Part shown: piece after piece, positions 48,944 through 50,261 of the stretch
Numbering within the stretch: the first letter of the stretch is position 1
Layout of the letters: every line of letters begins with the position of its first letter
Assembly (NCBI RefSeq): GCF_008709555.1
Contig: NZ_VYIJ01000008.1
Location: 1 to 60,966, forward strand
DNA length: 60,966 bases
Direction: 5' to 3'
Source: Thermoplasma sp.
GTDB lineage: Archaea > Thermoplasmatota > Thermoplasmata > Thermoplasmatales > Thermoplasmataceae
The notes under the pieces: model-generated
Databases searched by the model: none
Told to the model about the DNA's origin: nothing
Seen by the model: the letters and a program-made list of their open reading frames with translations, nothing else
Made by a program: the position numbers and the translations under genes

Positions 48944-49018
48944 AGCGGGGTGGGGTAGTCAGGAAATCCCGATGGGCTCATAACCCGTAGATCGATGGTT
49001 CAAATCCATCCCCCGCTA
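48944..49018 (+). tRNA. Initiator tRNA-Met (CAT)
   Basis: The acceptor arms AGCGGGG/CCCCGCT begin with the A1:U72 pair typical of archaeal initiators. The anticodon loop is CTCATAA with CAT, on a GGG/CCC stem end, which is the initiator hallmark. The T arm is GATGG-TTCAAAT-CCATC and the discriminator is A. CCA is not encoded. The last three bases overlap the stop codon of rio1 on the other strand. Confidence 0.92.
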
Positions 49019-49756
49019 CTTCTTCTTTATGTATTCCCTTATCCTATCGGGGTTCGTATCTATTCCATGTTTTTCAAAGAACGTGCTGACGTTCAGTATA
49101 TCCCTTTCTAGAAACTCGGCCGCCATCGGATGGTCTATGTCAACGGCCTGCGCCAGGTCTATGAAGTAGACCTTTCTGTGGTAGAGCATATTGTACTCGC
49201 TGAGATCAGCGTGCACGATCCTGCTGGCATACATGCGCCTCATGCCATCGATGACCTGTGTATATATATCCTCGTTAACGTCCACATCCTTCAGCTGCGG
49301 TGCGGGCCCGGACTTCGTGCCTAAGTAGGACATGACCAATATGTTTTTGAAGAAACCGATAGGCTTCGGCGCAGGCACATGGGCATTCTCCAGAGCCATC
49401 AAATTCGTATATTCCTTTCTCACCCAGACCGGGATTATGTCGTTTCTGTCTATCCTTATCTTCGAGAACCTCTGGTCCCCTTCGATGTACTTCCTTATGT
49501 TCATGAATTTAAGCGTGGACATCTTGAATATCTTAACCGCAATAAATTTTTTACCAGAAACCGCCCTGAAGACAACGGATTCCTTGCCCGTCGATATTGG
49601 AAAATCAAGGTAATCTATACTGTACCTGGAGAAAACGTATTTCAATGCCTCCAGAGTTCTCCTGTCAAAAACGAGGTCAAGAGTCTTCCTGTCCAGATTA
49701 GACCTGAAAGCAAATTCATCATTCTTTATCAGCTGTCTGAGCGCCGAGTCATCTAT
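49016..49756 (-). CDS. rio1: RIO1-type serine/threonine kinase with non-standard start
   Basis: RIO1 acts in small ribosomal subunit maturation. STGKESVVFRA is the ATP-binding stretch, VHADLSEYNMLY the catalytic loop and YFIDLAQA the metal Asp. The conserved N-terminal subdomain (KTLDLVFDRRTLEALKYVFS) is clearly coded upstream of the first ordinary start, a TTG at 49645. Between the in-frame stop at 49763 and that TTG there is no ATG, GTG or TTG. A strong AGGTGAT site (49762-49768) lies 5 bases before an ATA at 49756, so initiation at AUA is proposed. A +1 frameshift from ATG 49763 at AGA-TGA is the alternative. It is downstream of aIF1A and probably translationally linked. Confidence 0.85.
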   Translation of the reverse strand: MDDSALRQLIKNDEFAFRSNLDRKTLDLVFDRRTLEALKYVFSRYSIDYLDFPISTGKESVVFRAVSGKKFIAVKIFKMSTLKFMNIRKYIEGDQRFSKIRIDRNDIIPVWVRKEYTNLMALENAHVPAPKPIGFFKNILVMSYLGTKSGPAPQLKDVDVNEDIYTQVIDGMRRMYASRIVHADLSEYNMLYHRKVYFIDLAQAVDIDHPMAAEFLERDILNVSTFFEKHGIDTNPDRIREYIKKK

Positions 49757-49767
49757 CCTGCATCACC

Positions 49768-50127
49768 TCATTTGAATATATCGATGACTTCAGGCAACAT
49801 GTGGTTTCTGCTGAGATAGCTAGCCTGCGTCTTCGTGTAACGGTAGACAACATCGGCCTTCTCAGGCTGGAATTCCCATGGTTTTACTATGACCAGATCC
49901 TTCTCCCTGATCCACATGCGTTTGCGCATGCGCCCAGGTATCCTTGCATTCCGGGTGTATCCATCCTCGCACATGACCGAGAGCCTTGAAGCCCCCTCCA
50001 TCTTCTCAACTATACCGAACATCTCTCCCTTCTTCTTATTTGGGAGTATAACTCGCCCTATCGATTCCTCGTTTTCTTCTCCGTTAGCGATATCCTTGAC
50101 ACTATTGTCAACGTCGTCCTCGCTCAT
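49768..50127 (-). CDS. eif1a: Translation initiation factor aIF-1A
   Basis: The 119-residue S1-like OB-fold factor stabilises initiation complexes at the A site. GRVILPNKKKGEMFGIVEKM, RNARIPGRMRKRMWIREKDLV and KADVVYRY are family segments. The acidic N-terminal tail precedes the fold. The ATG at 50127 is preferred over a TTG six codons earlier because GGTGG lies directly upstream. It is the first gene of an aIF1A-rio1 pair. Confidence 0.94.
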   Translation of the reverse strand: MSEDDVDNSVKDIANGEENEESIGRVILPNKKKGEMFGIVEKMEGASRLSVMCEDGYTRNARIPGRMRKRMWIREKDLVIVKPWEFQPEKADVVYRYTKTQASYLSRNHMLPEVIDIFK

Positions 50128-50261
50128 ATTCCACCATTCTTTCAATGTTCACCTGGCCTATGGCAATGCATCAGCAAGCCATGCCGATAGAGCATATGGA
50201 ATGCTGATTACAAATACAAATTTAAATATTTGCGGAAAATTCAAAGTTTCCGGTTAACTCT

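Follow-up and report, generated by a model that had tools for sequence, protein, structure and literature searches.

Where does translation of rio1 begin in Thermoplasma? In the window, the 60,966-nucleotide stretch of Thermoplasma sp. DNA analysed here, the rio1 frame holds no ATG, GTG, or TTG between its upstream stop and TTG 49645, the first such codon of the frame, and part of the conserved protein is encoded before that point. The original prediction described this situation at positions 49016 to 49770 and proposed either an AUA start codon or a +1 frameshift. Direct reading agreed with both the coordinates and the missing start, and the comparison within the genus together with the placement of the Shine-Dalgarno sequence (SD) supported the AUA codon and disfavoured a shift of the prfB type.

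Reading frame and N-terminus of rio1

The following features are considered below.

49016..49756, minus strand: rio1 coding region counted from AUA, 246 codons plus stop, encoding the RIO-type ATPase/kinase Rio1
49754..49756, minus strand: proposed AUA start codon of rio1, invariant in five of five genomes, at an aligned SD spacing of 5
49646..49753, minus strand: N-terminal stretch DDSALRQLIKNDEFAFRSNLDRKTLDLVFDRRTLEA, upstream of any canonical start and kept in relatives with ATG
49762..49769, minus strand: SD GAGGTGAT, complementary to the 16S 3′ tail GGATCACCTCC over all 8 nt
49763..49765, minus strand: TGA that closes the rio1 frame upstream, located within the SD, by direct reading
49749..49763, minus strand: short out-of-frame ATG CAG GAT AGA TGA, the frameshift candidate, overlapping the SD and with a start whose identity is not conserved
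49768..50145, minus strand: aIF1A (translation initiation factor 1A), given as the longest open reading frame; PF01176, E = 3.3e-24, and TIGR00523 above its cut-off

The rio1 product matched the Pfam RIO1 family (PF01163) with an E value of 1.3e-59 and 201 bits against a cut-off of 22, and its best PDB matches were human RIO1 and archaeal Rio1. Its P-loop ISTGKESVVF (STGKE), catalytic segment IVHADLSEYNM (HADLSEYN), and metal-binding segment YFIDLAQAV (IDxxQ) all aligned with solved RIO1. Like these archaeal and human members of the Rio1 family, it has the RIO domain and the conserved N-terminal DRxTL...FDxRTL region; set against the family, the start codon is the sole unusual feature of the Thermoplasma gene. 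The alignment of the N-terminal stretch to solved RIO1 begins at query residue 13, and the peptide NDEFAFRSNLDRK is coded upstream of 49645. As had been claimed, the N-terminal part of RIO1 is thus encoded ahead of TTG 49645, and judged by these alignments and by the relatives, the codons preceding 49645 encode genuine protein.

The junction with the upstream gene was read directly as 5′-ATATTCAAA TGA (49770-49768, the aIF1A stop) GGTGATGCAGG ATA (49756-49754) GATGACTCGGCG-3′, so that the aIF1A stop lies 11 bases ahead of ATA. The rio1 frame itself is closed by TGA 49765-49763, after which it reads TGC AGG ATA GAT GAC TCG GCG CTC and onward. The stop that had been placed at 49763 is therefore present, with that position being only its last base.

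Conservation and placement of the AUA codon

Of 61 genomes searched, 58 gave a rio1 match, and the five belonging to the window's genus were all read. Two of these, G001 (1,564,906 bases) and G004 (1,584,804 bases), are single contigs; a contig scan gave one locus, in the MAG Thermoplasma sp. KMA_Bin19, which matches G003. The junction is GAGGTGATGCAGG-ATA-GATGAC in the window's own genome, GAGGTGATGAAAG-ATA-GATGAC in G001, GAGGTGGTTAAGG-ATA-GATGAC in both G002 and G003, and GAGGTGGTAAAAG-ATA-GATGAA in G004. Hence, GAGGTG, seven bases, and then ATA-GAT-GA are invariant in 5/5 Thermoplasma genomes, and the alignment of further Thermoplasma genomes that had been suggested as a check found SD and ATA kept throughout. 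In none of the five does a canonical in-frame start follow the SD ahead of the conserved N-terminus. The in-frame GTG of G002 and G003 overlaps the aIF1A stop and lies upstream of the SD. Counted from zero in the open rio1 frame, the first canonical codon is number 39 in the window's genome, 61 in G001, and 79 in G004; in the last, it is the 80th codon of the frame and comes after the kinase P-loop.

Relatives carry an ordinary ATG within about one codon of the ATA site (M-x-E-E-S-A-L versus I-D-D-S-A-L). Among the codons between the SD and the conserved N-terminus, ATA is the only near-cognate one that is invariant in all five genomes, the codon before it being AGG or AAG. By itself, the invariance of ATA is weak evidence, since ATA is the usual isoleucine codon of rio1 (85/123) and 5 of 14 other conserved isoleucine positions are also invariant ATA. 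The case for an AUA start rests instead on the missing alternatives and on the SD.

The 16S tail GGATCACCTCC was read in G001, G002, and G004; no 16S gene was found in the draft genome of the window itself. To this tail the rio1 SD is an 8-nt match, which bears out the perfect anti-SD match claimed 5 bases before ATA 49756. Spacing was calibrated on 51 Thermoplasma ATG starts having an SD of at least 6 nt, with distances counted from the T of GGAGGTGAT. Spacings of 3, 4, and 5 nt accounted for 10, 12, and 13 of these starts, respectively (35/51 together), and ATA stands at the commonest value, 5. Interior codons preceded by an SD of at least 8 nt at an aligned spacing of 3 to 6 made up 0.033%. 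Spacing 5 alone is unfit as a background: at that distance GGTGAT contains a TGA in frame, which lowers the count inside genes. Given this interior background and the conservation in all five Thermoplasma genomes, the arrangement at rio1 is more than chance.

With no ATG, GTG, or TTG at the N-terminus, a strong SD at ordinary spacing, and conservation across the genus, the sequences argue for translation of rio1 from AUA 49756-49754, and we consider this likely. The same level of confidence applies to the best explanation as a whole, in which rio1 is the gene after aIF1A in an aIF1A-rio1 operon. The SD would position the 30S-Met-tRNAi complex over AUA, with A1 and U2 paired and position 3 unpaired, and Rio1 would begin with methionine (MDDSALRQL...).

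Alternative readings of the junction

The other solution offered for the locus is a +1 frameshift, in which translation starts at ATG 49763 (or at a GTG within the SD), proceeds for four or five codons, and enters the rio1 frame by slipping at AGA-TGA, in the manner of prfB. ATG 49763 does read ATG CAG GAT AGA TGA, a short out-of-frame reading that ends in TGA and that a +1 shift would join to the main frame, which is the likeness to the programmed frameshift of prfB. The reading GTG/ATG...GAT-AGA-TGA is open in all five Thermoplasma genomes, and the ATG lies 4 nt past the aIF1A stop, at which distance reinitiation could replace an SD. However, this ATG sits inside the SD at an aligned spacing of −2, and none of the 51 calibrating ATG starts has such a spacing. 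Nor is the start conserved: the proposed conservation of ATG-CAG-GAT-AGA-TGA held for AGATGA, but two genomes have ATG as the zero-frame start and the other three have only GTG. The invariance of AGATGA is itself forced by the main-frame codons ATA-GAT-GAN. By the pairing rules, a P-site tRNA-Arg (anticodon UCU) on AGA should be unable to re-pair with GAU. The sole SD, which stops 7 nt short of AGA, is placed for ATA, leaving no SD-like stimulator at the slip codon. Thus, rio1 differs from prfB in having neither a slip codon that re-pairs nor an SD-like element about 3 nt before the slip site, and in having a nonconserved start inside the SD. In another genus of the family, g15, a GTG..TTT-AGA reading likewise reaches the main frame through a +1 shift, and TTTAGA is shared by all four genomes, but the out-of-frame stop occurs at no fixed place. 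We regard a frameshift in Thermoplasma as improbable.

Initiation one codon upstream of ATA, at the near-cognate AGG or AAG, would suit the relatives' ATG, which aligns with this column, and both codons are one base off AUG. AAG and AGG are, however, the poorest near-cognate start codons. The codon also varies (AGG in three genomes, AAG in two) where ATA does not, and its aligned SD spacing of 2 is at the edge of the calibrated range, with 6 of 51 starts. Such a start is very unlikely.

Even less credence goes to an ordinary start at TTG 49645 or later, which would yield a Rio1 without its N-terminal region. Although no canonical codon of the window's rio1 frame comes before TTG 49645, this codon is not conserved (G001 and G004 code for isoleucine there), and in G004 the first canonical codon falls behind the P-loop; moreover, all relatives conserve the region that would be lost, and solved RIO1 contains it. 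Finally, the window's assembly is a draft of 46 contigs, but sequencing error is refuted by the absence of a canonical rio1 start in the four other Thermoplasma genomes as well, two of them single contigs, and a pseudogene is at odds with an intact frame, identities of 75-91%, and a single full match in each genome, so that the chance of either is negligible.

Apparent non-AUG starts in the family and the possible role of AUA

In g15, a canonical rio1 start is missing at the N-terminus in 4/4 genomes, and GGTGAT-5nt-TTA-GA is kept in all four. TTA accounts for 5 of the 92 leucine codons in the g15 rio1 genes, and four of these five are at the SD-placed position. A UUA start would be odder than AUA because UUA is two changes from AUG, and slippage at TTT-A in place of a TTA start is a live alternative in this genus. 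In a tree of RIO1 plus aIF1A, g15 did not group with Thermoplasma; a g15-side group without Thermoplasma had a support of 0.93, and the other deep nodes were weak. Since the tree separates the two and the genera adjoining each have rio1 with ATG, two origins of a noncanonical rio1 start are likely from these comparisons.

For background, six genomes were surveyed over stretches of no more than 400 kb each, which gave 767 reciprocal orthologue pairs. When the pairs were ranked by how much conserved sequence precedes the first canonical start of both members, rio1 pairs took nine of the ten top places. A listing of SD-placed noncanonical codons consisted mostly of chance matches inside genes. 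A small membrane protein, considered as a second startless Thermoplasma gene, was rejected as a conserved case, since it has ATG in three genomes; AAG stands at the place of the ATG in G001 (G001:C1:367962), and the gene was also noted in G004.

The methionyl-tRNA synthetase gene metG was observed with an apparent CTG start (CTG-AAG) in the g15 genomes G018, G061, and G062. There, an SD, GGTGAT, lies 4 nt upstream of the CTG, and an in-frame TAG or TAA directly precedes the CTG; the sister genome G034 has ATG. In the five Thermoplasma genomes, no in-frame canonical codon precedes the MetRS signature except a GTG inside the SD; the codon placed by the SD is ATC in G000 and G001 and ATA in G002, G003, and G004. 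The Thermoplasma metG start is ambiguous because a GTG in the SD is automatically in frame at spacing 4.

As to what an AUA start might do for rio1, its role is probably dosage control and possibly control by start stringency. On the more modest reading, the weak AUA codon would hold Rio1 below aIF1A on their shared messenger. A more tentative idea is that Rio1 output would rise when start-codon proofreading, by aIF1 with aIF1A, falls, comparable to bacterial IF3 via AUU. Rio proteins of archaea have a role in late maturation of the 30S subunit (PMC8339473); aIF1 favours the SD-dependent binding of mRNA and works against non-AUG complexes (PMC6237735). RNA structure around the rio1 start, evaluated in four homologous 141-nt stretches, was no better than in shuffled sequences (z of +0.8, −1.1, −0.7, and +2.0).

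Bacterial infC, encoding IF3, has an AUU start and autocontrol (work cited in PMC9845219). Like infC, rio1 would be a gene linked to translation initiation with an AU-H start behind a good SD, and its output could depend on start-codon proofreading. Unlike infC, the case concerns an archaeon, the codon AUA, and Rio1 behind aIF1A in place of the proofreading factor itself, and the feedback is hypothetical. Autoregulation of eIF1 through a poor-context AUG (PMC6237735) similarly couples output to initiation stringency through start-site quality, but the eIF1 codon is an AUG in which only the context is weak. The aIF1 gene was rejected as a further gene with a near-cognate start: it has an ordinary ATG in the seven genomes in which its start was read, the eighth being G034. 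The idea of a stringency feedback consequently gains nothing from its most natural test. It is a doubtful though conceivable extension that, in this family of archaea, genes linked to translation initiation carry non-AUG starts (AUA and UUA in rio1, CUG and perhaps AUA/AUC in metG) as a sensor of start stringency, an archaeal counterpart of the infC AUU circuit that would have evolved at least twice.

Fixed AUA starts are close to unknown. A reconstruction covering 61,358 ancestral AUG starts in 36 prokaryote groups counted two switches to CUG and one to AUU, and AUA is absent from its text (PMC5622118); we found no report of AUA initiation in archaea in the open-access literature. Gene callers restricted to ATG, GTG, and TTG truncate or miss such N-termini. 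A genus-wide AUA start on a ribosome-maturation gene behind aIF1A would be a natural substrate for testing start-codon proofreading in archaea. On these genomic comparisons, synthesis of an important protein is probably initiated in Thermoplasma at a codon that hardly ever serves as a start.
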